From a bacterium (GTDB taxonomy: Bacteria > Blakebacterota > Blakebacteria > Blakebacterales > Blakebacteraceae): DNA of 15,322 nt. Below, piece by piece: positions 1,872 through 14,771 of this stretch. Every line of letters starts with the position of its first letter. Position 1 is the first letter of the stretch. The DNA lies in contig JALGVQ010000058.1 in NCBI GenBank assembly GCA_025774615.1, positions 1 through 15,322 of the forward strand, in the 5' to 3' direction. The position numbers and the translations under genes were made by a program. The notes under the pieces are model-generated. The model saw only the letters and a list, made by a program, of their open reading frames with translations, was not told where the DNA came from and did not search any database.

Positions 1872-2999
1872 ATGATGGAGCAGTTCCAGGAGTGGGCGCA
1901 GGAGCGTCATTCCTACGCACAGGAGTGGAAGAAACAGACCGGCGGCAAAGTGGTCGGCTACTTCTGTACCTATGTACCGGAAGAGATCCTGTATGCAGCC
2001 GACATCCTGCCGGTACGCATCCTGGGCAGTCACGAACCACAGGATGTGACCGAACCCCACATCTTCGGCATGTTCTGTCCCTTCTGCCGCGACTGTCTGG
2101 CCCAGGGCCTCAAAGGACGGTTCGACTACCTCGACGGTATCATGATCGCGCAGTCGTGCATCCATATCCGGCAGGCGTTCACCAGCTGGGAGATGCACCT
2201 GCCCACCGACTTCAGTTACTACCTCCCCATGCCGAACCATGTGCAGAGTAAACGGGCCACACCCTTCCTGCGGGGTGAACTGGAGAAGTTCAAGGGTGCG
2301 GTCGAGGAGTGGACCGGTACGACGATCACCGATGAGAAGCTGAATACCGGCATCGATCTGATGAACACCAACCGCCGGCTCCAGAAGCAGATCTATGAAC
2401 TGCGCCAGGGGGGCAACCCGCCCATCACCGGTCTCGAGGCGATGTACCTCACCATTTCGAGTCAGACCACATCGAAGGAAGACCACAACCGGGAGATGGA
2501 ACGGGTCGTGTCAGAACTTTCCGACCGATCAACCGGACGCTCGATCGGCACCCGCCTCATGCTGGTGGGGAGCGAGAACGACGATACCGAATTTGTGAAC
2601 ATGGTGGAGTCGGTAGGAGCTACGGTGGTGATCGACGACCACTGCACCGGTACCCGCTATTTCTGGAACGAGTCGGAACCGAACGGGGGTGACCCACTCG
2701 AGGAGATCGCCCGGCGGTACGTCGATCGGCCCGCCTGTCCGACCAAGGACTGGCCCGATCGCACGCGCATCCCCCACGTCCTCAAGATGGCGAAAGAATG
2801 GGACGTGGCCGGCGCTATCCTCATCCAGCAGAAGTTCTGCGATCCCCACGAGCTTGATATCCCGGCGCTCACGAAGGCATTCCACGAAGCCGGGATCAAG
2901 ACCCTCTTCCTCGAGTTCGACGTCACCGTGCCCCTCGGACCGTTCCGGGTCCGCGTGGAAGCATTCCTTGAGATGTTGAGCGACGAAGACCTTTTCTAG
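1872..2999 (+). CDS. bzdN: Benzoyl-CoA reductase, bzd-type subunit N (BcrC/BadD-like)
   Basis: 375 residues of the 2-hydroxyacyl-CoA dehydratase/benzoyl-CoA reductase subunit family, at the usual length for this subunit. With BzdO it should form the Fe-S-containing half of the cytoplasmic enzyme that binds benzoyl-CoA and reduces its ring with two electrons. Recognition comes from the N-terminal block with KQTGGKVVGYF (21-31), the cysteine cluster C69-PF-C72-RD-C75, C96 in the QSCIHIR block, and C323 in QKFCDPHE near the C-terminus. These cysteines are the best candidates for [4Fe-4S] ligands. The start is supported by GGAAGGA at 1858-1864; ATG at 1872 and 1875 are adjacent and either could be used. 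It is the first gene of the cassette, preceded by the candidate operator. An activity on another aromatic or cyclic acyl-CoA is possible, but the full N-O-P-Q-M-V context favours benzoyl-CoA reductase. Confidence 0.87.
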   Translation: MMEQFQEWAQERHSYAQEWKKQTGGKVVGYFCTYVPEEILYAADILPVRILGSHEPQDVTEPHIFGMFCPFCRDCLAQGLKGRFDYLDGIMIAQSCIHIRQAFTSWEMHLPTDFSYYLPMPNHVQSKRATPFLRGELEKFKGAVEEWTGTTITDEKLNTGIDLMNTNRRLQKQIYELRQGGNPPITGLEAMYLTISSQTTSKEDHNREMERVVSELSDRSTGRSIGTRLMLVGSENDDTEFVNMVESVGATVVIDDHCTGTRYFWNESEPNGGDPLEEIARRYVDRPACPTKDWPDRTRIPHVLKMAKEWDVAGAILIQQKFCDPHELDIPALTKAFHEAGIKTLFLEFDVTVPLGPFRVRVEAFLEMLSDEDLF

Positions 3000-3029
3000 G
3001 ACAGCCTGGCCCCCGAGAGGGCGGGTTTG

Positions 3030-3044
3030 AAGGAGATGATGATG
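3030..3044 (+). promoter_or_regulatory. RBS choosing the third ATG as bzdO start
   Basis: AAGGAG at 3030-3035 is followed directly by three consecutive ATG codons at 3036, 3039 and 3042. Only the third lies about 6 nt from the SD. An in-frame TTG at 3027 lies upstream of the SD and is unlikely to be the start. Confidence 0.65.
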
Positions 3045-4352
3045 GCCAAGACGTTACACCCTACCAGGCCGCTGGAATGTTGGGCGAAGGCAAAGGAGAT
3101 CCGGCAGGATTACTACCGGAGCTACGCGGAGGCACACGACAAGGGTCAACTCCGCTGGGCGGGAGGCGCCTGGTCGTTCGACGCGGTGCCGGCCGGTCTG
3201 GGTGACGATATACGGATGATCACCTCCGAGCCCTATGGAGCCTCGATAGCCTTCGATCGGGAATTCTCGAACCGGTGTCTCGAGGCGGTCGAAAAAGCTG
3301 GTTACGCGCGTGATCTCTGTTCCTACATGCGCAATTACTGGGGCTCCATCCTGCTCGATGAATACGCCTTCGGCGGGAAATTCCCCAAGCCCGACTTCAT
3401 CTGGCAGGATCACATCTGCTGCAGCCATGCCAAGTGGTACCAGGTGGTGACCGACATGGAGCCGGAGATCCCCCACTTCTGCACCGACGTGGGATCGGGT
3501 CCATATCACGAACTGGACGAGAACCGTCTCAAGTACGTCGTGGATCAGCTCCACGACGGGATCGAGTGGCTGGAGCAGAAGACCGGTCGCGAATACGATG
3601 ACGAGAGACTGTACGAGGCAATACACAACGAGTGCCGCAGTACCTCCGTCTGGGCCGAGATCTGCAATCTGAACAAGGCGGTTCCCGCGCCGCTCGATGA
3701 GAAGACGATGTATTCCCTCTATGTCCTCGGCACGCTGGAGAAGCACAGCAAGGTGGTGGCCGACTTCTACGAGGAGCTCCGCGACGAGGTGCAGGACCGG
3801 GTCGATAACGGTATCGCAGCAGTGGGGAATGAGCGTTGCCGGCTCATATCTGATACCCAGCCGCCGTGGGGATTCCTGAAGGTCTTCCGCTATCTGGAGG
3901 AATTCGGAGCGATCTCAGTGGGTTCACTCTACACCTTCGGTCTCATCGGCATCTGGGAGGTCAAGGAGGACGGTACCTGGGGCCCCCGGACCACCCCCGC
4001 ACAGCAGGGGGTCTCATTCGAGTCGCGTGATCACGCGCTTCGGGTGCTTGCTGACTGGAACCTGAGCAAACCGGAATGGCAGCATTTCTATTCACCCCAG
4101 TACAAGAGTGACATGATGCTCCGCATCGCCCGGGAGTGGGATCTCCAGGGTGTCCTCCTCCACTACAACCGCGGCTGTGAAGGTTTGTCGATCGGTATCG
4201 CTGAGAACCGCCTGGCCCTGCAGAAGGAGGGATACCCGGTGATGTCGTTCGAGGGGAACATGGGGGATGAGCGGGAGTTCGACGAGGCCCGGACGATGGC
4301 ACGGATAGACGCGTTCATGGAGACTCTCGGGTTGACCCGGGATTTCGCGTAG
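3042..4352 (+). CDS. bzdO: Benzoyl-CoA reductase, bzd-type subunit O (BcrB/BadE-like)
   Basis: 436 residues from the ATG at 3042, the size expected for the larger Fe-S subunit of class I benzoyl-CoA reductase. It pairs with BzdN; the two share the 2-hydroxyacyl-CoA dehydratase fold and together hold the clusters next to the substrate. Candidate ligands are C93 ([11 protein letters not shown]), C126-C127 ([11 protein letters not shown]) and C379 ([12 protein letters not shown]); the last block is the signature that closes the cluster site in this family. The gap after bzdN is about 40 bp and holds a short GCCC/GGGC hairpin, so the genes are co-transcribed. The gap before bzdP has a perfect 6-bp-arm hairpin at 4354-4370. 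No missing or broken family motif was seen. Confidence 0.88.
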
Positions 4353-4353
4353 G

Positions 4354-4370
4354 CACCGGGTGAACCGGTG
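4354..4370 (+). other. Intercistronic hairpin between bzdO and bzdP
   Basis: CACCGG-GTGAA-CCGGTG, a perfect 6-bp stem with a 5-nt loop, begins directly after the bzdO stop codon. No T-run follows, so it is not a classic terminator. It may stabilise the 3' end of the bzdNO message or mark a processing point. Confidence 0.4.
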
Positions 4371-4398
4371 ACCGGAAACGTACAGGGAGCTTGATACC

Positions 4399-5199
4399 AT
4401 GGTTTCGATCGGCGTGGACATGGGAGCCAAAAACGTCAAGGTGGTCGTCCTGAGGGAAAACGAGGTGATCGGCAAGGCTCTGGTCACCGCGGGACTCGAC
4501 ACTGAAGGCGCTCTGAAGGAGGCATTGCAGTCCGCCTCCAGGGAAGCCGGCATCGATTACGATGAGGTCGGGAACATCACTGCGACGGGAGCGGGACGCA
4601 AGGATGTGCCGATGGCCCGCGATGAACTGACGGAGGTGGGTGCCGCCGCCCGGGGAGCCCTTTTCCATTTTAGTGACGCGCGTACCGTGATCGACGTGGG
4701 CGCGGAAGAGGGACGCGGAGTTCGTTTTAACGCGGAGGGCCGGGTGATCGATTTCGTGATCAACGAAAAGTGCGCCGCGGGAGCCGGAGCCTTCACCGAA
4801 GCGATGGCGCGGGCCCTTGAAGTCCCGCTGGAGGAGTTCGGGCCGCTGTCTCTGAAGTCGGACCGTGAGATCCCGATGAATGCCCAGTGTGCTGTCTTCG
4901 CCGAGTCGGAGGTGGTGAGCCTGGTACACGCCAAAACACCGAAAAAGGACATTGCCCGGGCGGTCCACGATGCCATCGCGAGCAGGATCACCTCGATGGT
5001 TCGCCGGGTCGGCGTGGAAGAACGGGTGGCACTGGTGGGAGGGCTGGCTTATAACGTCGGTTTCATCGATTCCCTCAATAGAGACCTCGAGACTGAAGTC
5101 CTGATCCCTCCGGACCCGGAGTATACAGCAGCGATCGGTGCCGCCGTCGTGGCCGCCGAACGGGGAGCAAAAGCGAGTGAAGGGGGTGAGAACTCATGA
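4399..5199 (+). CDS. bzdP: Benzoyl-CoA reductase ATPase subunit P (BcrAD/BadFG family)
   Basis: 266-residue ASKHA-fold ATPase of the BcrAD/BadFG/HgdC activator family. With BzdQ it forms the electron-activating half: it takes low-potential electrons from ferredoxin and couples ATP hydrolysis to transfer into BzdNO. Visible are the phosphate-1 loop IGVDMGAKNVKV (4-15) and the GATGAGR-like block TATGAGRKDV (61-70). The cluster cysteines that bridge the two ATPase subunits are C125 (NEKCAAGAGAF) and C164 (AQCAVFAESEV); the adenosine-side GGLAYNVG is at 214-221. Where most activators have D-x-GGQD-x-K, this protein has DVGAEEGRG (99-107). I believe this is the pattern of the delta/BcrD-like subunit, so BzdP and BzdQ are not interchangeable copies. 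GGGAG lies about 10 nt before the ATG. Its stop overlaps the bzdQ start as ATGA. Confidence 0.83.
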   Translation: MVSIGVDMGAKNVKVVVLRENEVIGKALVTAGLDTEGALKEALQSASREAGIDYDEVGNITATGAGRKDVPMARDELTEVGAAARGALFHFSDARTVIDVGAEEGRGVRFNAEGRVIDFVINEKCAAGAGAFTEAMARALEVPLEEFGPLSLKSDREIPMNAQCAVFAESEVVSLVHAKTPKKDIARAVHDAIASRITSMVRRVGVEERVALVGGLAYNVGFIDSLNRDLETEVLIPPDPEYTAAIGAAVVAAERGAKASEGGENS

Positions 5200-6071
5200 C
5201 GACCGAATACTGGCGCTGGAAAGAGTACAACTGGAAGAATCCCGACATCGACTGGAAAGATGCGAAGAACATCACGGTAGGGGTCGATGTGGGTTCAGTG
5301 AGTTCCCAGGCCGTGATAATGACCGACGGTGAGCTGTACGCCTACAGCAACATGAGGACCGGTTCGGACAGCCCTGAGAGTGCGGAGAACGCGCTTGACT
5401 GGGCGCTGAAGGACACCGGCATGACACTGGATAATATCCTCTACGCTGTTGGAACGGGGTACGGGAGGGTCAACGTCCCCTTCGCCGACCGAGCCATCAC
5501 CGAGATCGCCTGCCATGGGCGGGGGGCCAATTTCATGTACGGTCCGACGGTGCGGACCATCCTCGATATGGGTGGCCAGGACTGCAAGGTCATCCAGGTG
5601 GATGAGAAGGGGAAGGTCCAGGAGTTCCTGATGAACGACAAGTGCGCGGCAGGGACCGGTCGGGGCATGGAGGTTTTCGCCGATCTGCTGGAGATCCCGA
5701 TCGAGGATATCGGAGAACTCTCCTTCCAGGTTGATGAAGAACCGGAACCGGTCAGCAGCACCTGCGTCATCTTTGCCAAGACGGAGGCCACCGGACTCCT
5801 GCGACAGGGGTGGCCGAAGAATGATGTACTTGCCGCCTACTGCTCGGCCATGGCACTACGTGTGGTGGCGCTGATTGAACGGGTGGGAGTTGAGGAGGAC
5901 TTTGCCATCACCGGTGGTATCGCCAAGAACGCCGGAGTGGTCAAGAGGCTCACCGGCTATCTGAATCTGGAGGCGCTCCAGCCGAAGCACGATACACAGA
6001 TCGCCGGTGCGCTCGGAGGAGCGCTCTTTGCTCAGACACTGGCTGTCAAGGAGGGCAAGGTGCCGTCCTGA
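5196..6071 (+). CDS. bzdQ: Benzoyl-CoA reductase ATPase subunit Q (BcrAD/BadFG family)
   Basis: 291-residue partner of BzdP in the ATP-hydrolysing module. A 26-residue lead containing YWRWKEYNWK precedes the ASKHA core. Phosphate-1 is VGVDVGSVSSQA (28-39); the canonical phosphate-2 motif is LDMGGQDCKV (123-132). The inter-subunit [4Fe-4S] ligands are C150 (NDKCAAGTGRG) and C190 (SSTCVIFAKTEA); the adenosine motif is GGIAKNAGVV (240-249). It keeps every activator motif, in contrast to BzdP. Translation is probably coupled to bzdP through the ATGA overlap, with a GGGGGTGAG Shine-Dalgarno just upstream, which fits a 1:1 subunit ratio. Assignment to the alpha-type versus delta-type role rests on the motif difference and is from memory. 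Confidence 0.86.
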   Translation: MTTEYWRWKEYNWKNPDIDWKDAKNITVGVDVGSVSSQAVIMTDGELYAYSNMRTGSDSPESAENALDWALKDTGMTLDNILYAVGTGYGRVNVPFADRAITEIACHGRGANFMYGPTVRTILDMGGQDCKVIQVDEKGKVQEFLMNDKCAAGTGRGMEVFADLLEIPIEDIGELSFQVDEEPEPVSSTCVIFAKTEATGLLRQGWPKNDVLAAYCSAMALRVVALIERVGVEEDFAITGGIAKNAGVVKRLTGYLNLEALQPKHDTQIAGALGGALFAQTLAVKEGKVPS

Positions 6072-6091
6072 TACCGGGGCACCCGGGTATC
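6070..6091 (+). other. Intercistronic hairpin between bzdQ and bzdM
   Basis: GATACC pairs with GGTATC, with an inner GGG/CCC stem, a GCA loop and one bulged G. It overlaps the bzdQ stop. There is no T-run, so read-through into bzdM and bzdV is expected; the structure may set the ratio of reductase to ferredoxin mRNA. Confidence 0.4.
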
Positions 6092-6122
6092 CGATGAATG
6101 CTGAGGGCACCACTACACCGCT

Positions 6123-6140
6123 GGAGGAATGCAGGAAATG
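6123..6140 (+). promoter_or_regulatory. RBS choosing the bzdM start
   Basis: GGAGG at 6123-6127 is only 1 nt from the ATG at 6129 but about 10 nt from the in-frame ATG at 6138. The second ATG is therefore the more likely start. Confidence 0.5.
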
Positions 6141-6413
6141 AAAGCCAATTACGGCTACCATGACGGTTCCGGAGACTTCTTCATTACGATAGACAGCAAC
6201 CTCTGCACCGGTTGTGTGGAATGCATTTCTTCCTGTCCGGCAGATGTTCTTGAAATGATCACCGACGACTATGACGACGTTGTCGCGGCGGTGAAGGATG
6301 AGCACCGGAAAAAGATCAAATACTCCTGTGCCGAATGTAAACCGGTCGATGAGCAACCGCCGCTGCCCTGCGTTGCCGCCTGCGAACCGGGAGCCATCAC
6401 CCACTCCTGGTAG
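6138..6413 (+). CDS. bzdM: 2[4Fe-4S] ferredoxin, probable electron donor to benzoyl-CoA reductase
   Basis: 91 residues from the ATG at 6138. The first cluster motif is canonical, C23-x2-C26-x2-C29-x3-C33-P. The second is stretched, C64-x2-C67-x10-C78-x3-C82-E-P: an insertion lies between the second and third cysteines. This recalls the Thauera and Chromatium-type ferredoxins, whose insertion loop shifts one cluster to very low potential. The protein lies between the reductase genes and the flavoprotein, as bzdM does in the Azoarcus cluster as I recall it. Expected role: carry electrons from BzdV to the BzdPQ cluster in the cytoplasm. No signal or membrane segment is present. It could serve other reductases too, but the position argues for a dedicated donor. 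Confidence 0.78.
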   Translation: MKANYGYHDGSGDFFITIDSNLCTGCVECISSCPADVLEMITDDYDDVVAAVKDEHRKKIKYSCAECKPVDEQPPLPCVAACEPGAITHSW

Positions 6414-6459
6414 AGAGCATGTCAGTTCCTTATAACAACGGTCGGGTAATGGGCATCCA

Positions 6460-8922
6460 ATGAGTACTCTGCGTCTTACCATCGGAGAGAAACAGGTCGA
6501 GGTGGCTTCCGGAACCTCTCTCCTTCAGGCAGCCCGTGAAGCAGACGTCTATATCCCCTCCCTCTGTGATCATCCCGATCTGCCTCCCTGGAAGGACCTG
6601 GATGAATGGACTGAGGTTTTCCAGGGGGAGACACGGATAGCCGGCGATCCATCAGCCAATCGGCCAGAACCGGGTTGCGGTCTCTGCGTTGTGATGGTGG
6701 AGGGGGACGATGAACCGGTCCGTGCCTGCGTGACTGCAGCGGCGGACGGGATGCAGGTCCGGATCGAGGGAGAGGATCTGCGCCTGCTGCGACAGCAACG
6801 ACTTGGTGAGATATTCACCCATCATCCCCATGCCTGCCTTACCTGTGCCCAGAAGGTCGGGTGCAGCAGGGAACCGTGCTCTACCGATGTGCCGGTCGAC
6901 GAACGCTGCTGCCCGCTGCTCGGTAACTGTGAACTGGAGCGGGTCGCCGACCATGTGGGGATCCCAGCCGATGCCGTACGATACCATCCGCAGAACCTGC
7001 CCCGGATTACTGATGACCCGCTCTTTGAGCGTGATTTCAACCTCTGCATCGCCTGTACCCGCTGTGTCCGCGCCTGCCGTGATCTGCGTGGAGTCGATGT
7101 CATCGGTCTCACCTTCCACGAGGGGCGATACCGGATCGGTACACGGGCTCCATCACTTGTTGATTCAGAGTGCCGTTTCTGCACCGCCTGTGTCGAGGTG
7201 TGTCCGACCGGCGCTCTGCGAGACCGCGATCTTCCTGCCGGGAAGAGGGACGATGCTCTCGTGGCATGCCGGACCGGTTGCCCCGCTCATACCGATGTGC
7301 CCGTCTACGTGGGGCTGGCTGCCGAAGGCCGCTTTGCGGAGTCTGCAGCGGTGGTGCGGGAACGCGCTCCCCTGGTCCACGTTCTGGGGCATATCTGCTT
7401 CCATCCCTGCGAGTCGGTCTGTCGCCGGGGAGAGGTGAACGATCCGGTGGCCATCCGTGCGGTTAAACGGGCAGCCGCCGAACATGATGACGGCCGCTGG
7501 AAGGAAGCGTATCCGCGGCCTGCTTCCACCGGAAAGCGAGTGGCGATCGTCGGAGCCGGTCCCGCGGGTCTCTCGGCCGCCTGGTTCCTGAACGCGGTGG
7601 GTCATGAGGTCATCCTCTTCGATCGGGAAGAGGGGGTGGGGGGGATGCTCCGGAGCGCAATACCGGCTTTCCGGCTCCCCCGTGAAGACCTTGAACGTGA
7701 GGTTACCGACATTATCGATCTGGGCATTGAGGTGCGCACCCGATTCGAGCTGGGTCGTGACGGCTCGGTCGACGACCTCCTCAACGATGGATTCGACGCG
7801 CTCCTGCTGGCTATGGGCGCCGGAAAGAGCAAGCAGATCCCGCTGCCCGGTAGTGACCTGAGCGGTGTTTTCTGGGGACTCGAATTTCTGAAGGAATGCA
7901 CTATCGGCCCCTCTCCCGAACTGTCAGGGCAGTGTGTGGTGGTCGGGGGCGGCAACGTGGCCATGGATGTGGCTCGCTCGGCGTGGCGGCTCGGCGCCGA
8001 CAGCGTGGACCTCTTCTGTCTCGAATCGGAGAAAGATATCCCGGCCTACGCACCGGAGATCGGTGAAGCGCGCGAAGAGGGGGTGACTATCCATCATCAG
8101 TGGGGACCGGTCGAGATCACTGGTGAAGAGGAAGCAGTCTCAGGGATCGAGTTCAGGCGTTGTCTCAAAGTGTTCGATGACGAAGGCAGGTTCGCTCCCG
8201 CTTACGATGACGATGTGACCTCCTCATTCCCGGCGGAGACCGTCATCCTTGCCATCGGCCAGGAGGTGGAAGCGGTCGCAGGTGATACTGATCGGGCCGG
8301 TGTCTTCCGGGCCGGTGATTGCCTCTCCGGGCCCTCCTCGGTGATCGAAGCGATTGCATCAGGACGCACAGCTGCTGAGGAGATCGACACGTTCCTGGGT
8401 GGATCGGGCGATCTCACCCTGCGTCTGGTCGAGCGTGACCCGGTACCGGTGCATCTGGGGAGGGAAGAGGGATTTGCCGGCAAGGTAAGAATCGATGTGC
8501 CCTCTCTGCCTTCAGATGAACGACGGTCTTTCGATTGCCTGTCTCCTGGCCTCGATGCCGGAGCCGCTGCCATGGAAGGCTCCCGTTGTCTCCGCTGCGA
8601 CATGCGCCTTGAAATGGCGCAGGTCATACTTCCTCCACGCCTCTGGCTCGACTTCACCCCTGAACTGGTTGCAGAGGTTCCTTCAGAGCCTGGTGCCTAT
8701 CAACTCCTCGATGGTGCCGGTAAAGTGCTGACGATCGCCGGTGTGCCTGATCTGCGGGAAGCGCTCCTGGTAGAAATGGAAGATGAGGGGGAAGTGGTAT
8801 ATTTCCTCTACCAGGAAGATCCGATGTATACCCGGCTCGAGAGCGAACTCCTCCAGCAGTGCCTCCAGGAACAGGGGGAGATGCCTGGAGGCTCCTTCGA
8901 CGACCTGGATGATCTTTTCTGA
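6460..8922 (+). CDS. bzdV: BzdV-like NuoG/GltD fusion Fe-S flavoprotein, NAD(P)H:ferredoxin oxidoreductase
   Basis: 820-residue multidomain redox protein. Residues 1-105 form a NuoG/HydA-type [2Fe-2S] domain (C36, C73, C76, C90) with about 25 extra residues between the first two cysteines. H122-x3-C126-x2-C129-x5-C135 is the His-Cys3 cluster motif. Two ferredoxin-like motifs follow (C196/199/202/206 and C238/241/244/248). A GltD-like segment begins with C270/C274 and C313/C317/C321, the FAD motif GAGPAG (365-370), the NAD(P) motif GGGNVAMD (496-503) and RAGD (617-620). CLRC (710-713) precedes a UvrC/GIY-YIG-like tail and an acidic DDLDDLF end. NAD(P)H would reduce FAD, and electrons would run through the clusters to BzdM. 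NADPH versus NADH cannot be told, and no FMN (NuoF) domain is present. The SD is weak. It closes the cassette and is convergent with the next gene. Confidence 0.75.
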   Translation: MSTLRLTIGEKQVEVASGTSLLQAAREADVYIPSLCDHPDLPPWKDLDEWTEVFQGETRIAGDPSANRPEPGCGLCVVMVEGDDEPVRACVTAAADGMQVRIEGEDLRLLRQQRLGEIFTHHPHACLTCAQKVGCSREPCSTDVPVDERCCPLLGNCELERVADHVGIPADAVRYHPQNLPRITDDPLFERDFNLCIACTRCVRACRDLRGVDVIGLTFHEGRYRIGTRAPSLVDSECRFCTACVEVCPTGALRDRDLPAGKRDDALVACRTGCPAHTDVPVYVGLAAEGRFAESAAVVRERAPLVHVLGHICFHPCESVCRRGEVNDPVAIRAVKRAAAEHDDGRWKEAYPRPASTGKRVAIVGAGPAGLSAAWFLNAVGHEVILFDREEGVGGMLRSAIPAFRLPREDLEREVTDIIDLGIEVRTRFELGRDGSVDDLLNDGFDALLLAMGAGKSKQIPLPGSDLSGVFWGLEFLKECTIGPSPELSGQCVVVGGGNVAMDVARSAWRLGADSVDLFCLESEKDIPAYAPEIGEAREEGVTIHHQWGPVEITGEEEAVSGIEFRRCLKVFDDEGRFAPAYDDDVTSSFPAETVILAIGQEVEAVAGDTDRAGVFRAGDCLSGPSSVIEAIASGRTAAEEIDTFLGGSGDLTLRLVERDPVPVHLGREEGFAGKVRIDVPSLPSDERRSFDCLSPGLDAGAAAMEGSRCLRCDMRLEMAQVILPPRLWLDFTPELVAEVPSEPGAYQLLDGAGKVLTIAGVPDLREALLVEMEDEGEVVYFLYQEDPMYTRLESELLQQCLQEQGEMPGGSFDDLDDLF

Positions 8923-8949: not shown

Positions 8950-9993
8950 TCAGCGCCTGACTCTCACACTCCCTGATGCCGTGCTCAACATGATTTCCGG
9001 TCCCCCTGATCCCACCTTCACAGTCTTCCTCATGTACGTCCTGCCGTTCTTCTCGAATTCCTCTTCTGTGGTGAAGGACATCGGGCAGGAGATGCGGCCG
9101 CGATCCTTGCGGGCGACCATGACCAGGGTGTAGTTGCTGCCGAAGTCATCTGCCTGTAACTCCACATCACCAGAGGCGGAACTGACGGACAGATCATGAC
9201 CAGGCAGCCGTCCGAACCGAACCACGACATCCCCGGAGGCAGAAGAGAAGTCACCCTGGTCCGTCAATTCACAATCGCTGATCCGTACATTACCACTGGC
9301 GGAACTCAGGTCGAACGCGCCTCTGCTTCCGGAGGCGCGTACATCCCCGGAGGCAGTTGAGAACTTACCCCGTGTGGGATTTGTTACGTTCAACAGATCT
9401 ATATCACCACTTGCCGTACTGAACTCACAACCGGTTCCGAGAGTCACATCCTCCAGGGTGATGTCACCGCTGGCAGTATCGAAATCACAGTCATCACTCA
9501 CCGTCATGGCGGTCAGAGTGATATCGCCGCTGGCCGTATCGAACCGGGAACCATCCACCAGGATCACCCCGGTCAGATCGAGATCTCCACTTGCGGTATC
9601 GAACCGCAGATTGACCGCGACCCCTTCTGCGGAGAGATCACCGGAAGCCGTATCCCAGATAATCTGCACCGGGTCACCGTTCTGTGGGAGATAGACCGTC
9701 CAGTGGACTCTGCCATGGGTGTTACGGCCACTCCACCGCTCCTTGATCCTGACTGAAGAGCCGCTCTGTTCTACTTCACCCTGGAAATTTTCAGACGGAG
9801 TCACGTCCTGGAACAGTTCGATCCGCACCTGTCGTCCATCGGTGGGTTTGATCGTCACATCGCCGGAGACACCATCACCGGTGATCCGGGTCACTCCTGA
9901 GAATTCGTGCTGTTCGGTCTGGAAAGCGTGTGCTGTGGTTGTTGCGCTGCCAAGCAGAAGAAGCGCCACAGCCGGCATCAGAAATCTTCGCAT
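8950..9993 (-). CDS. Exported DUF4097-family beta-repeat protein
   Basis: 347 residues with a Sec signal peptide (MRRFLMPAVALLLLG, likely cut after AHA at 23). Start chosen by GGGAGG about 6 nt upstream of the ATG at 9993. From residue 115 the protein is built from a motif (T/S)ASG(D/N) at about 115, 133, 153, 173, 193, 213, 231, 251 and 272, mostly 20 residues apart, with a final TASGS near 338. This is the pattern of DUF4097 ('putative adhesin') proteins, expected to fold as a right-handed parallel beta-helix with one turn per repeat. No lipobox, membrane anchor or sorting signal was seen, so it is probably periplasmic or released. Function is unknown; the name adhesin is only a database label. 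The gene is convergent with bzdV and appears unrelated to it. Confidence 0.82.
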   Translation of the reverse strand: MRRFLMPAVALLLLGSATTTAHAFQTEQHEFSGVTRITGDGVSGDVTIKPTDGRQVRIELFQDVTPSENFQGEVEQSGSSVRIKERWSGRNTHGRVHWTVYLPQNGDPVQIIWDTASGDLSAEGVAVNLRFDTASGDLDLTGVILVDGSRFDTASGDITLTAMTVSDDCDFDTASGDITLEDVTLGTGCEFSTASGDIDLLNVTNPTRGKFSTASGDVRASGSRGAFDLSSASGNVRISDCELTDQGDFSSASGDVVVRFGRLPGHDLSVSSASGDVELQADDFGSNYTLVMVARKDRGRISCPMSFTTEEEFEKNGRTYMRKTVKVGSGGPEIMLSTASGSVRVRR

Positions 9994-10248
9994 TGTTCCC
10001 TCCCTCGAGATACTGATCCGGGTGGCCCACTATCGTATCGAAGGCACACTTGCAGAGACCTGATACCCACTCGAATCATCATTCATGACATAACACGGTT
10101 ACTGGTAGAGGTACGAAGAAAGGGAGTGGGTTGTTGCAGAGAGCGGGGTTACCTGTGAAGGGGGGACCAGTGTTACCGGCGCTGGAAAAGGAAGCGTCAA
10201 CTGCATCATTGACATCATGGAGAGAGCGGATATCTTCCAGTTTCGAAC
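9994..10248. other. Gene-free part of the divergent spacer
   Basis: No credible coding region on either strand. It should hold the promoter of the minus-strand DUF4097 gene, but no clear -35/-10 pair stands out. Open frames crossing it are shadows of the downstream operon. I see no repeat or RNA gene here. Confidence 0.4.
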
Positions 10249-10277
10249 CGGACAGGAAAGTCTGAAATGCTTATAAT
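10249..10277 (+). promoter_or_regulatory. Sigma70-like promoter of the sulfur/aspartate operon
   Basis: CGGACA at 10249-10254 (four of six -35 bases), an exact 17-bp spacer, and a consensus TATAAT at 10272-10277. Transcription would start near 10284. This gives a leader of about 160 nt before the first codon at 10444, or a free RNA of about 110 nt if the terminator at 10397 is used. It is the best bacterial promoter in the window. Confidence 0.55.
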
Positions 10278-10316
10278 CGTCGCGAAAAGGACCACCTTGT
10301 TTATGGCGATGCCCAG

Positions 10317-10397
10317 GCCCCCGGAGGGGTGTCGAGGGTAACGCGACGAATATCGTCTTCTGCGCAGCCCTCCGGCACTCCGCCGCGGGGCTTTTTT
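10317..10397 (+). terminator. Long structured hairpin plus T6 in the operon leader: attenuator or small RNA end
   Basis: A branched-free stem can be drawn from 10317 to 10391. GCCCC (10317-10321) pairs with GGGGC (10387-10391), CGGA (10322-10325) with TCCG (10379-10382), GTGTC (10329-10333) with GGCAC (10374-10378), and GAGGG (10334-10338) with CCCTC (10368-10372). An apical GACG/CGTC hairpin sits at 10345-10357. Six T follow at 10392-10397, so it should act as an intrinsic terminator. The 5' strand can fold differently: CCCC (10318-10321) with GGGG (10326-10329) across a CGGA loop, which removes the C-run the terminator needs. It lies between the promoter and the first gene, 47 nt before the start codon. 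Either attenuation of the downstream operon or a free small RNA fits. It matches no riboswitch class I could recognise. Confidence 0.5.
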
Positions 10398-10432
10398 CTT
10401 GGTGCAAACGGTCTACCAGGCAAAAGAAGCGC

Positions 10433-10446
10433 AGGAGAGATGCATG
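10433..10446 (+). promoter_or_regulatory. RBS choosing the UPF0280 start
   Basis: AGGAG at 10433-10437 is 6 nt from the ATG at 10444. An in-frame GTG at 10399 lies right behind the T-run and has no SD, so it is not the likely start. Confidence 0.7.
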
Positions 10447-11241
10447 TATACCGAACGGTTCTACCGGGACTGGATCAGCCAGGACGGTTCCGATCGATTC
10501 GAGGTGACGATCGGGGAGAGCGATCTCCTCATCCGATGCGATCACGATCTGTACGATGTGGCCTTTGAGACTCTGGCGGAAGTCCGACGGGGAATTGAAG
10601 ACCATATCGCCTCTGATCCCCGTTTCGCGGTAACACTCGAACCATGTGCCATCGCTCCAGGAGCCGCTCCGATCATCAGGGAGATGGCCTCGGCGGCGCA
10701 TTCCCGGTCCATCGGTCCCATGGCCGCTGTAGCCGGGGCCGTGGCTGAAGCGGTAGCTGTACGCCTCCTGCGGGAAACCACCAGCGTCAGTGTTGAGAAC
10801 GGCGGCGATGTTTTCATCAGGGCGCCCGGCCCTGTGATCTTCCTGCTCTATGCCGGTGAAGACTCGCCATTTTCCGACTCCATCGCTTTCGAGGTCGATG
10901 CGACCGAGGGGATCGGTGTGTGCACTTCGAGCGCAGTGGTGGGGCCCTCCCTCTCCTTCGGCCGGGCTGACGCGGTGGTGGCGATCGCCGGGAAGGCGGC
11001 TGTTGCCGACGCTGCCGCCACTGCCATCGCCAACCGGATCAGCACTCCTGGAGACATCGGACCGGTAATCGAAGCAGAACAGGATCGCGGGAGTCTGAAG
11101 GGACTCCTCGCCTGTTGCGGTGACCGGTTGGGAGTGTGGGGAGATGTCGCGCTGGTGGATCGATACGTACCTGAACGAAAAACCGGGATGACTCTGAAGC
11201 AACATCTGTCACAACTGATCGAAGAAGGAACAATCTCATGA
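10444..11241 (+). CDS. UPF0280/COG2122 family protein, probable sulfide-assimilation factor
   Basis: 265 residues, an ApbE-related fold. Family marks are the opening MYTERFYRDW, GPMAAVAGAVAEAV (91-104), the ApbE-like VENGGDVFI (117-125), GVCTSS (158-163) followed by SLSFGRADAV (169-178), and ADAAATAIAN (188-197). The family is common in methanogens and some anaerobic bacteria. The Methanosarcina member MA1715 has been linked to efficient growth with sulfide as sulfur source. Here it opens an operon whose other genes convert aspartate toward homocysteine, and its stop overlaps the next start as ATGA. Its exact chemistry is unknown; a role in sulfur delivery or in maturation of the COG1900 partner is inference. 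It is preceded by a structured leader, so expression is probably controlled by premature termination. Confidence 0.85.
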   Translation: MYTERFYRDWISQDGSDRFEVTIGESDLLIRCDHDLYDVAFETLAEVRRGIEDHIASDPRFAVTLEPCAIAPGAAPIIREMASAAHSRSIGPMAAVAGAVAEAVAVRLLRETTSVSVENGGDVFIRAPGPVIFLLYAGEDSPFSDSIAFEVDATEGIGVCTSSAVVGPSLSFGRADAVVAIAGKAAVADAAATAIANRISTPGDIGPVIEAEQDRGSLKGLLACCGDRLGVWGDVALVDRYVPERKTGMTLKQHLSQLIEEGTIS

Positions 11242-12458
11242 CGAAGACCTATGAAGAGATCAACGAGAAGATCCGAGCCAGGAAGGCTGTGGTCGTCACG
11301 GCAGAGGAGATGATCACCGTCGTCGCCGAGAGGGGGGTACAGGGTGCTGCCCGGGATGTCGACGTCGTCACGACCGGGACCTTCGGCGCGATGTGCTCCA
11401 GCGGAGCGCTCCTCAACGTCGGGCATCCGTCACCCAGGATCAAGATCCAGCGGGCCTGGCTGAACGGCGTGCCCGTGAACGGCGGACTGGCGGCGGTCGA
11501 TATGTATCTCGGCGCGACCGCGCTGGCCGAAGGTGATCCAGCCAATGAAGTTCACCCGGGACGGTTCGCTTACGGCGGCGGCCACGTGATAGAGGATCTG
11601 GTCCGAGGGAGAGAGATCGAACTCCGGGCCGAGGGGTACGGAACCGACTGCTATCCACGGAAAGAACTGGTAAGGAAGATCACTCTGCGGGATATACCGG
11701 ATGCCTTCCTGCTGAATCCACGCAACGCCTACCAGAACTACAATGTGGCGGTGAACGTCCACTCTGACCGGCCGATCTATACCTATCTGGGGAAACTGAA
11801 GCCAGGTATTGAGAACGCCGGTTATTCCTCCGCCGGCCAGCTCTCACCCCTGCTGAACGATCCCTGCTACCGGACGATCGGGATCGGCACCCGGATATTC
11901 CTCGGCGGCGGTACCGGGTATATCACATCCCGGGGAACACAGCACAATCCCGATGTTCCGCGCACACCGAACGGTGTGCCAATCGGCGGAGCGGGAACCC
12001 TGGCGGTGACCGGTGATCTGAAGCAGATGAACGCCAGGTATCTGAGAGGGCTGTCACTCAAGGGGTATGGGGTATCACTGGCTGTCGGTCTCGGGGTACC
12101 GATCCCGATCCTTGATGAGGAGATGGCCCGGTTCACGGCGGTCTCCAACACGGAGATCATGTCTCCGGTCGTGGACTACTCGGATGACTATCCCAACGGG
12201 AAGGGTGAACCTCTCGGTTATGTCAGTTACGCCGACCTCCGGTCCGGTATCATCGACTTCCAGGGGCGCAGGGTACGGACCGCTACAAGTTCCAGTTATG
12301 CCAGGGCATCCGAGATCGCCACGGAGCTGAAGCGGTGGATCGAGGAGGGTTCATTCCAGATCGGCCGACCGGTCGAGCTGCTTCCCGACGCCGGGGCAAC
12401 AGAGCGTTTCGAGTCCCCGTCATACGACCTCTCCGAATACAGGACGGTGACACGATGA
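11238..12458 (+). CDS. DUF39/COG1900 homocysteine biosynthesis protein
   Basis: 406-residue DUF39 protein. Family blocks seen: TTGTFGAMCSSGALLN (45-60), the glycine-rich NGGLAAVDMYLGATAL (81-96), YGTDCYPRKE (134-143), NPRNAYQNYNVAVN (160-173) and GGGTGYITSRGTQHNP (223-238). The conserved cysteines are C53 and C138, matching in position the two cysteines I recall as persulfide-forming in Methanosarcina MA1821; C210 is additional. Established for the archaeal homologue: together with a ferredoxin-like NIL protein it makes homocysteine from aspartate semialdehyde and sulfide. Here it overlaps the UPF0280 gene and the Asd gene by ATGA junctions, so its substrate is made by its neighbours. No CBS, NIL or ferredoxin domain is attached and none is encoded in the window, so the electron or sulfur partner must lie elsewhere or be unnecessary. 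Confidence 0.87.
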   Translation: MTKTYEEINEKIRARKAVVVTAEEMITVVAERGVQGAARDVDVVTTGTFGAMCSSGALLNVGHPSPRIKIQRAWLNGVPVNGGLAAVDMYLGATALAEGDPANEVHPGRFAYGGGHVIEDLVRGREIELRAEGYGTDCYPRKELVRKITLRDIPDAFLLNPRNAYQNYNVAVNVHSDRPIYTYLGKLKPGIENAGYSSAGQLSPLLNDPCYRTIGIGTRIFLGGGTGYITSRGTQHNPDVPRTPNGVPIGGAGTLAVTGDLKQMNARYLRGLSLKGYGVSLAVGLGVPIPILDEEMARFTAVSNTEIMSPVVDYSDDYPNGKGEPLGYVSYADLRSGIIDFQGRRVRTATSSSYARASEIATELKRWIEEGSFQIGRPVELLPDAGATERFESPSYDLSEYRTVTR

Positions 12459-13474
12459 GCCGGGTCAACGTTGCGGTTCTGGGAGCGACCGGGATCGTCG
12501 GTCAGACCTTTCTCTGGCTGCTGGCCCGGCATGACTGGTTCACACCGGTCTATCTGGCTGGATCGGGGACGAGGAGAGAGAAGATATACGGCAATGTCAC
12601 TCCCTGGCGCCTGCCGGTGGAGATGCCCGAAAGCATCAGGGACCAACCTCTGCATGCCCTCGACCTCGACGAGTGTGTGGATTCCGGTGCACGTATTATC
12701 TTCAGCGCTCTCCCCTCGAGCGTGGCGGCCGATGTCGAACCGGCACTGAAAAAGAAGGGACTTGCCGTGTTCTCCAACGCCGGGGCGATGCGTCACGCTC
12801 CCGACGTGCCGATTCTTATCCCCGAGGTGAATCCGGAAGCCCTCGATCACATCCATGAACAGGGATATCCCGACGGAGGTTTCATTGTCACGAACGCCAA
12901 CTGCTCCACCACCGGGCTGGCCGTAGCGCTGGCTCCTCTCCGGGAGTTCGGGATCAAGGAGTTATTCATCTCCACCTGCCAGTCGATCTCCGGGGCCGGT
13001 TATCCGGGTGTTCCCTCGCTCGATATCAGCGATTCCGCCATCCCTTTCATCCCCGGCGAGGAGGAGAAAATCGCCTCGGAACTGCGTGAGATACTGGGGA
13101 TAGATGCCGCGATTTTTTCCACCTGTGTCAGGATCCCCGTCAGGTACGGACACCTGGCAACGGTCTGGGTGAGATTCGATGGGCCGGTAGGGCGGGAGGA
13201 CATCCTTGAGGTGTGGCGAGGATTCCGCAGTGAGGCAGTCACACCGACAACCCCGCCACATCCCATCATCTATTGTGATGAGGATTCCCGGCCCAGGCCC
13301 GACATGAGTTTCTTCGGTGACCCACCCGGTATGCCGGTTTTCACAGGTCGTCTCCGCGAGAGAGAAGGTCTTATCGGGTTCGTACTTCTGGTGAACAATC
13401 TGGTGAAGGGTGCGGCTGGCGGTTCGGTCCAGAATGCCGAGTTCTTCTTGCAGAAGGCAGGTGATGGATCATGA
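12455..13474 (+). CDS. asd: Aspartate-semialdehyde dehydrogenase, archaeal/long type
   Basis: 339 residues from the ATG at 12455, which overlaps the upstream stop (ATGA). The open frame extends 120 nt further up, but that part lies inside the DUF39 gene. The enzyme reduces aspartyl-4-phosphate with NADPH to aspartate semialdehyde, the branch point for homocysteine, threonine and lysine. Visible: the nucleotide loop GATGIVG (10-16), active-site C150 in NANCSTTG, QSISGAGYPG (176-185), and the substrate-binding R227 with catalytic H233 in RIPVRYGH. The sequence is of the type shared by archaea, fungi and some bacteria rather than the E. coli type. The protein is complete with all catalytic residues. 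Its stop overlaps the aspartate kinase start (ATGA). Confidence 0.92.
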   Translation: MSRVNVAVLGATGIVGQTFLWLLARHDWFTPVYLAGSGTRREKIYGNVTPWRLPVEMPESIRDQPLHALDLDECVDSGARIIFSALPSSVAADVEPALKKKGLAVFSNAGAMRHAPDVPILIPEVNPEALDHIHEQGYPDGGFIVTNANCSTTGLAVALAPLREFGIKELFISTCQSISGAGYPGVPSLDISDSAIPFIPGEEEKIASELREILGIDAAIFSTCVRIPVRYGHLATVWVRFDGPVGREDILEVWRGFRSEAVTPTTPPHPIIYCDEDSRPRPDMSFFGDPPGMPVFTGRLREREGLIGFVLLVNNLVKGAAGGSVQNAEFFLQKAGDGS

Positions 13475-14771
13475 GCAGGATCGTCGTGAAGTTCGGTGGA
13501 TCGAATCTGAGATCGGTGGGAGACCTGGAGCGGATCATCGAGACGGTCAGACAGTACGATGAACCACTCATCATTGTGGTCTCGGCTCTCTGCGGTGTTA
13601 CCGATCTCCTGGTTCAGGCACTACGGGATCTGTTCGATCACACTGACGAGATGGAGAGGCTGGCCGGCATATCACGCCTCAGACAGCATCTGCTCGATGC
13701 CCATATGCGGTACATAGAACGGTATATCGACGATTCAGGGGTGCGCCGAGGGGTAGATGCCGGTCTGCTCGAACGCCTTGAAGAACTGGGGCGCTATCTG
13801 CTCGGGAGCAGTCTGCTGGGGGCAGCGCCGCCATTCGCGCACGACCGCATCCTGAGTCATGGCGAACGGCTCTCCTCCCTGATGCTCAGCGCGATCCTCG
13901 GGAACAGCGGGATCACCTGCACAGAGATTCTGCCCGAGGAGATCGGTCTAGTGACCGACGGTCGTTTCGGGGAAGCGACGGTAGACATCGATGCCTCGAA
14001 GGATCGAGTGGATGAGGCGCTCAGAGGGGCACTCGCGGCTGGGGATACCTGTGTCATCCCCGGTTTCTATGGGAGGATGTACCCGGATTCCTGAGCGGCG
14101 ATCCCGATCTGGTGGATGATCCGATCCGGCTGGAGTCACTCACCTATGAGGAAGCGGCGGAACTCTCCTATTTCGGCGCTCGTATCATCCACCCCCGTGC
14201 CTTTGAACCGCTGCTCGGTTCCGATATCCCGGTGCGACTCTTCGATATCAGGACCGCGGACGACCTGAACAGATCACCGACCGTGATCGGGTCCTCGGCG
14301 AACACGAGCCCGACCGTCATCAAGAGTGTCACCAGCAGTGATGAGGTCGGAGTACTGAAACTGCGCGGCCCCGGTGTCGGGATCAGACCAGGGATCATGG
14401 CGGAAGTGGCGGGTCAGCTGAATGCGGCCGGGATCAATATCAGATCGATCCTCACTGCCCAGACATGCATCAACGTTCTCCTGGCTCCGGCCAACCTGTC
14501 GAGGAGTCGGTCGATCGTCGAAAAGGCACTGCCGGACGCGGTGGAGGAAATCACGGTCATGGAGGAGGTATCGCTGGTGGCCGCGGTGGGCAGCGGGATG
14601 CTGGAACGGGCTGGTGTCTGGGCCCGGATGGCAGGAGCCGTTTCCCGGGAGGGTATCAACATGCGCCTGGTCTGCGCGGGCGCCTCCGACGTCGTCGCCT
14701 ACTGTATCGTGGACCGGTCAGACCGGAAGAATGCGGTCAGGGCCATCCACCGGGAATTCATCTCCTCCTGA
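13471..14771 (+). pseudogene. lysC: Aspartate kinase with internal deletion and frameshift
   Basis: Aspartate kinase in two frames. Frame one starts at 13471 and gives 201 normal residues: KFGGSN (7-12), VSALCGVTDLL (37-47), HGERLSS (130-136), and VIPGFYG (195-201). It then reads six foreign residues to a stop at 14092-14094. The second frame resumes at about 14070 as W-EDVPGFLSGDP, continues through SYFGARIIHPR and two ACT regulatory domains (VLKLRGPGVGIRPGIM; SLVAAVGSGMLERAGVW), and stops at 14769-14771. In intact enzymes about 33 residues lie between GF(I/Y)G and W(T/E)DV, including the TT-x-GRGGSD core that binds nucleotide and substrate. These are absent, and the frame offset means about 100 nt (3n+1) is gone. 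As written it cannot make active kinase. True pseudogene and assembly error are both possible; the rest of the reading frame shows no decay. Confidence 0.85.
14068..14076 (+). other. Deletion junction inside the aspartate kinase
   Basis: At TATGGGAGG the upstream frame reads Y-G-R and the downstream frame reads W-E-D. The TGG shared by both sides would suit a short-homology deletion, TATGG(...)TGGGAGG, but the missing sequence cannot be seen. Confidence 0.6.

Follow-up and report, generated by a model that had tools for sequence, protein, structure and literature searches.

A structured leader RNA, about 10284-10397, precedes a homocysteine biosynthesis operon in the window, the 15,322-nt stretch of DNA that was analysed here, and ends in a GC-rich hairpin with a T6 tract, 46 nt before the ATG at 10444. 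This leader probably acts as a premature terminator on the operon, whatever form the control takes. We tentatively propose that it is an attenuator worked by a ribosome on a short leader-peptide ORF; that methionine, of which homocysteine is the precursor, serves as the signal on this COG2122/COG1900 operon is a more doubtful proposal. The leader is a plausible fresh example of an already known kind of regulation, the main weakness being that it is a single sequence.

Operon and genomic context

The source genome is a 3.3-Mb draft (82% complete, 324 contigs), and the tetranucleotide composition of the window is typical of it. Comparisons covered one relative within the genus and two more within the family; the remaining compared genomes are related only at domain level. 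The first gene of the operon, of the COG2122 type (UPF0280, 10444-11241), starts at ATG 10444 with AGGAG at 10432-10436 and encodes a protein with 30-45% identity to homologues and a match to NCBIfam NF003323 (E 2.2e-71) that falls below the cut-off of that model. It is followed by the COG1900/DUF39 homocysteine biosynthesis gene (11238-12458; PF01837 HcyBio, E 2.9e-149), by an aspartate-semialdehyde dehydrogenase gene (12335-13474; PF01118/PF02774, TIGR00978 above cut-off), the true start of which is probably at MSRVNVAVLGATG, about 12455, and by an aspartate kinase gene (13471-14771; PF00696 and ACT domains), all on the plus strand. The kinase gene has a broken frame and consists of two pieces (13471-14094 and 14112-14771): one frame stops at TGA 14092-14094 and the coding sequence continues from 14112 in a different one. 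The segment normally bearing the TLGRGGSD-type motif seems absent. A deletion combined with a frameshift, or else an error of assembly, would account for the break. In Desulfovibrio, the formation of homocysteine from aspartate semialdehyde and sulfide requires the COG2122 and DUF39/COG1900 proteins (PMC5764234).

No match to COG1900 or COG2122 was found in the three family relatives. Because both are missing from all three, though these genomes are 63-85% complete, the results suggest that not every member of the family carries the operon. Further upstream in the window, at 1872-8922, another operon encodes two 2-hydroxyacyl-CoA dehydratase/benzoyl-CoA reductase-type subunits, two BcrA/BcrD-type ATPases, a ferredoxin and a large FAD/iron-sulfur oxidoreductase. 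The gene next to the leader on its upstream side (DUF4097, 8950-9993) is oppositely oriented, so no plus-strand coding gene lies directly before the terminator, an arrangement which speaks for attenuation by a ribosome.

Promoter candidates and leader fold

A consensus scan gave a candidate sigma-70 type promoter, CGGACA-17-TATAAT (10249-10277, plus strand), with a perfect -10 element at 10272-10277 and a weak -35 element at a spacing of 17 nt; transcription is predicted from this sequence to start at about 10284. The initial annotation called the promoter strong, which goes too far: only the -10 element is perfect, and the two promoter-like sites that the scan found in 3 kb, as against 0.9 +/- 0.8 expected, are not above chance in number. 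The second site, TTGACA-16-TATCTT, lies at 10209-10236 on the same strand. A perfect 7-nt complement, CGTCGCG/CGCGACG, is present at 10278-10284 and 10342-10348 and could close a domain if transcription started from this upstream site.

The leader had been described as structured and terminator-bearing, and folding agrees with this. The minimum free energy of 10283-10397 is -57.5 kcal/mol, compared to -42.2 +/- 3.9 for shuffled sequences (z -3.96, 0 of 200 as low). The terminator contributes part of this low energy, and the pairing between the terminator and the sequence upstream of it was therefore tested with the terminator held fixed. The upstream 83 nt then add -10.0 kcal/mol. Two shuffles in 1000 and three genomic 83-mers in 746 reach this value, and this pairing beyond chance is a further argument for the ribosome-worked attenuator.

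The terminator hairpin, GCCCTCCGGCACTCCGCCGCGGGGC, occupies 10367-10391 and is followed by T6 at 10392-10397, so that the leader contains an intrinsic terminator (10367-10397) ahead of the first operon gene, as expected of an attenuator. The folds define four regions, all on the plus strand. Region 1 (10306-10322) is the 5' side of an early hairpin and can, in growing-chain folds, also pair with the 3' arm of the terminator. Region 2 (10323-10344) forms the 3' side of the early hairpin and is the predicted antiterminator strand, in which GGAGGGGTGTCGAGGG pairs with CCCTCCGGCACTCC; a small predicted hairpin, GACGA-ATA-TCGTC (10345-10357), separates it from the terminator. Region 3 (10367-10381), the predicted antiterminator partner, comprises the 5' arm and loop of the terminator, and region 4 (10382-10397) its 3' arm (GCCGCGGGGC) and the T6 tract. 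In the growing chain the early hairpin (10306-10344) is predicted to fold first, followed by pairing of 10323-10338 with 10368-10381 and last by the long hairpin. The initial annotation had pointed out that CCCC (10318-10321) can pair either with GGGG (10326-10329) or with the terminator. Both pairings occur in the predicted folds, and the two mutually exclusive folds deduced from them do exist. By themselves, however, they do not form a terminator/antiterminator switch, since all stable folds predicted in the absence of a ribosome place a GC-rich stem next to the U-tract (pairing probability 1.0).

The same features could belong to a free small RNA, about 110 nt long, that possesses a promoter and terminator of its own and is tied to the operon by position only. 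The promoter-like site, the strong fold and the T6 terminator agree with such an RNA, as does the stability of the long hairpin without any ribosome, but the operon would then need read-through or a promoter missed by the consensus scan, which listed no further promoter-like site downstream of the terminator and ahead of the operon start (10444). Together with the searches described below, this makes a free small RNA rather unlikely.

T6 terminators in the genome

The pattern SSSSTTTTTT occurs at 56 sites in the genome, versus 41 for the reversed pattern. Folding of the surroundings of all 56 sites gave a hairpin of -9 kcal/mol or lower at 23. Fourteen of these hairpins are located 54-109 nt after a coding sequence, and on inspection L244, which stands behind an S21-like short gene, and L263 also follow genes, bringing the post-gene group to about 16 of 23. 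Another two lie within genes and two at the ends of contigs. The three that remain (the studied leader, L242 and L251) look leader-type, and all are near amino-acid-metabolism genes. Since some 16 of the 23 hairpins follow genes and only three look leader-type, and given the fold, the upstream pairing and the missing Rfam match, the one before the homocysteine operon is read as a premature terminator. T6 intrinsic terminators are rare in this genome (about 23 in 3.3 Mb), which suggests that most termination is achieved by other means.

The other two leader-type cases are candidates in their own right. L242 (C176, 1450-1512), a strong T7 terminator, stands before a cysteine-synthase-like gene and has no coding sequence ahead of it on the same strand; it may be another leader-type terminator belonging to a sulfur amino acid gene. 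L251 (C219, minus strand) carries, at about 1650-1733 in plus-strand coordinates, a 27-residue ORF, MNAYTRTRTWWWLSLQSSVSRVERTVV, with a Shine-Dalgarno sequence and three consecutive Trp codons. Downstream of this ORF come a strong T7 terminator, at a distance of 278 nt from the preceding gene, and two genes, one SerK/SbnI-like and one TrpB-like; L251 is a candidate trp-type leader.

Short ORF and ribosome-position model

The initial annotation overlooked a candidate leader-peptide ORF with a ribosome-binding site in the leader. This ORF, MAMPRPPEGCRG (10303-10341, plus strand), has 12 codons and a stop (ATG GCG ATG CCC AGG CCC CCG GAG GGG TGT CGA GGG TAA). A Shine-Dalgarno-like AAGGA at 10287-10291 lies 11 nt from ATG 10303 and 5 nt from TTG 10297, an in-frame triplet that may be an alternative start. 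The ORF spans both strands of the early hairpin, i.e. regions 1 and 2, and ends before the terminator. A short ORF with a Shine-Dalgarno site over the switching region is a feature of attenuators, but about 4% of random genomic 83-mers have one as well. Because the short ORF is present, an attenuator read by a ribosome is a simpler reading than a new ligand-binding RNA. Classical attenuators possess runs of control codons; MAMPRPPEGCRG has a single internal Met codon, or two if TTG 10297 is the start, and hence no such run.

For the ribosome-position model, the RNA covered by a ribosome was removed and the rest was folded; the model is thermodynamic and ignores kinetics. Without a ribosome, the terminator forms with a probability of 1.0 in this model. 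A ribosome at codon 3 (Met) lowers this value to 0.14 and one at codons 4-6 to almost 0; positions from codon 7 up to the stop give 0.74-0.98. The modelled terminator is lost only if a ribosome stalls within codons 3-6 (Met, Pro, Arg, Pro), and this low-terminator zone moves by only one or two codons across assumed footprints of +8 to +16. Among 2540 shuffles the combined geometry turned up 8 times, and among 2540 genomic segments 9 times (about 0.3%), with criteria that were chosen after seeing the sequence, and an ON position alone occurs in 12-20% of random segments. The three states of the folding model, like the structures, the ORF and the pairing excess, come from the sequence or from computation.

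These chance rates also bear on the reading in which the terminator has no sensor at all. It would then be constitutive or a leftover, lowering basal expression or insulating the operon from upstream transcription, and the ORF and the upstream pairing would be coincidental. The frequencies of such ORFs and ON positions in random segments fit this reading, and stable pairings are common in a GC-rich genome; the pairing excess (2 of 1000) and the rarity of the combined geometry do not fit it, and we consider it unlikely.

A control for the model was sought in other leaders. With L251 and its Trp-rich peptide, no antiterminator was obtained and a 14-bp terminator forms at every ribosome position; within this model L251 as a positive control neither supports nor validates it. 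A search for further leader peptides with runs of one codon ahead of genes gave no clear second case, and trpE, which was sought as an attenuator test case in this lineage, was not found in these genomes.

Proposed mechanism

We infer the use of the promoter, translation of the ORF, stalling and a role of methionine as signal in the following scheme. Transcription would start near 10284, and a ribosome would initiate on the 12-codon ORF at 10303. On reaching the stop codon it would cover regions 1 and 2, upon which the hairpin 10367-10391 would form and transcription would stop at T6. A ribosome stalled at codons 3-6, for example when charged Met-tRNA is short, would cover only region 1. Region 2 (10323-10344) could then pair with the 5' arm of the terminator, leaving the U-tract stemless and allowing read-through into the operon. 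If no ribosome is bound, one long hairpin (10314-10391) would still abut the U-tract, and the operon would be off.

In addition to the gene arrangement and the pairing excess mentioned above, the location of the ORF with its Shine-Dalgarno site across regions 1 and 2, the modelled states and the rare combined geometry would argue for this mechanism. Against it, Pro and Arg codons are as much part of the predicted ON positions as Met is. Other points against it are the lack of an orthologous leader, the small number of Met codons, the chance rate of the ORF, the choice of the geometry criteria after the fact, a promoter that is not above chance, and the behaviour in the model of L251, the only further leader-type case in this genome whose peptide is informative, which gives no antiterminator.

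Searches for related RNAs

Rfam covariance models, applied with gathering cut-offs and, over 10150-10500, with E up to 10, matched no family, as the initial annotation had expected; this covers the SAM, SAH, lysine and other Rfam riboswitches. Neither did 6S, SRP, tmRNA, RNase P or other known RNA genes give a covariance-model match to the leader. The same Rfam library does detect the T-boxes in loci L192 and L193 (see below). By DNA and covariance-model searches, no second copy of the leader was found in its own genome or in 59 other genomes and plasmids, and no homologue of the RNA in the three family relatives. A covariance model of the leader, R1, searched against 66 loci with COG2122 and 29 with COG1900, revealed no homologue. 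Outside the leader itself, R1 gave one match below E 0.1 (L195, E 0.041), which sits inside a reading frame, and one other of E 9.2; both were taken as chance. A minus-strand match of R1 on the leader is merely the hairpin's own complement.

The absence of a second copy in the genome, the three relatives and the fetched COG2122 and COG1900 loci speaks against the new ligand-binding RNA family that had been put forward, and likewise against the free small RNA. If the leader were a riboswitch of a family not yet described, its hairpin 10306-10344, or the domain closed by CGTCGCG/CGCGACG, would select between antiterminator and terminator in response to methionine, SAM, homocysteine or a sulfur compound. 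Such a switch is quite unlikely: the domain is small (39 nt) and consists mostly of GC helices with no obvious pocket, and the folds without ligand abut the U-tract, even though mutually exclusive folds exist, known families gave no match and three SAM-I riboswitches precede homologous genes elsewhere.

Leaders of homologous operons and comparison with known systems

Among the closest COG1900 genes (29 loci), five have a recognised leader regulator and a terminator 40-121 nt before the start. T-box leaders precede the COG1900 homocysteine genes in L192 (1214-1441) and L193 (2734-2951, minus strand); in both, the triplet before the stem I closing helix is AUG, a methionine specifier as read from the alignment. 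SAM-I riboswitches are found before the COG1900 genes in L202 (2730-2842, minus strand), L218 (1226-1335) and L219 (2756-2870, minus strand). Because COG1900 homologues carry AUG T-boxes and SAM-I riboswitches, leader control of the homocysteine pathway by methionine or SAM appears from these sequences to be a recurring solution, and the earlier guess at the pathway and at methionine or SAM as its signal is thereby strengthened. No convincing leader terminator was seen at COG2122 loci of other phyla (47 usable loci), and no SAM-I riboswitch in the own genome or the three relatives. By analogy, attenuation of the same pathway in the leaders of homologous operons, along with the lack of SAM-I here and in the relatives, would favour the ribosome-worked attenuator.

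A gene family in which T-box and leader peptide have replaced each other has been described (PMC2965389), and a study of Actinobacteria reported that the methionine operons there lacked a conserved RNA structure (PMC1262725). The literature searched contained no case of a methionine or homocysteine gene under a leader-peptide attenuator. If the proposal is true, the leader of the homocysteine pathway would be controlled by three unrelated sensors across lineages, i.e. a tRNA (T-box), SAM (riboswitch) and a translating ribosome, the last replacing the T-box and SAM riboswitches of homologous operons elsewhere. Leader-peptide attenuation would then also be shown in a lineage that is poorly sampled and has hardly any sequenced relatives.

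Similar to the trp, his, leu, thr and ilv attenuators, the studied leader has a leader ORF with a Shine-Dalgarno site, an early hairpin, and an antiterminator and terminator that share strands, and in the model it would be off when the ORF is fully read and on at an early stall. Unlike these attenuators, it has one or two Met codons instead of a control-codon run, and its ORF overlaps both region 1 and region 2. With the T-box leaders (RF00230) of L192 and L193 it has in common the gene that follows and a terminator about 45-50 nt before the start, and their signal, Met, would also be the signal proposed here; the window contains no AGGGUGGNACC motif, no stem I and no Rfam match at E up to 10. 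The SAM-I riboswitches (RF00162) of L202, L218 and L219 likewise have a terminator within the leader of the same gene family, and differ in the S-box, which has no match in the window or elsewhere in the genome.
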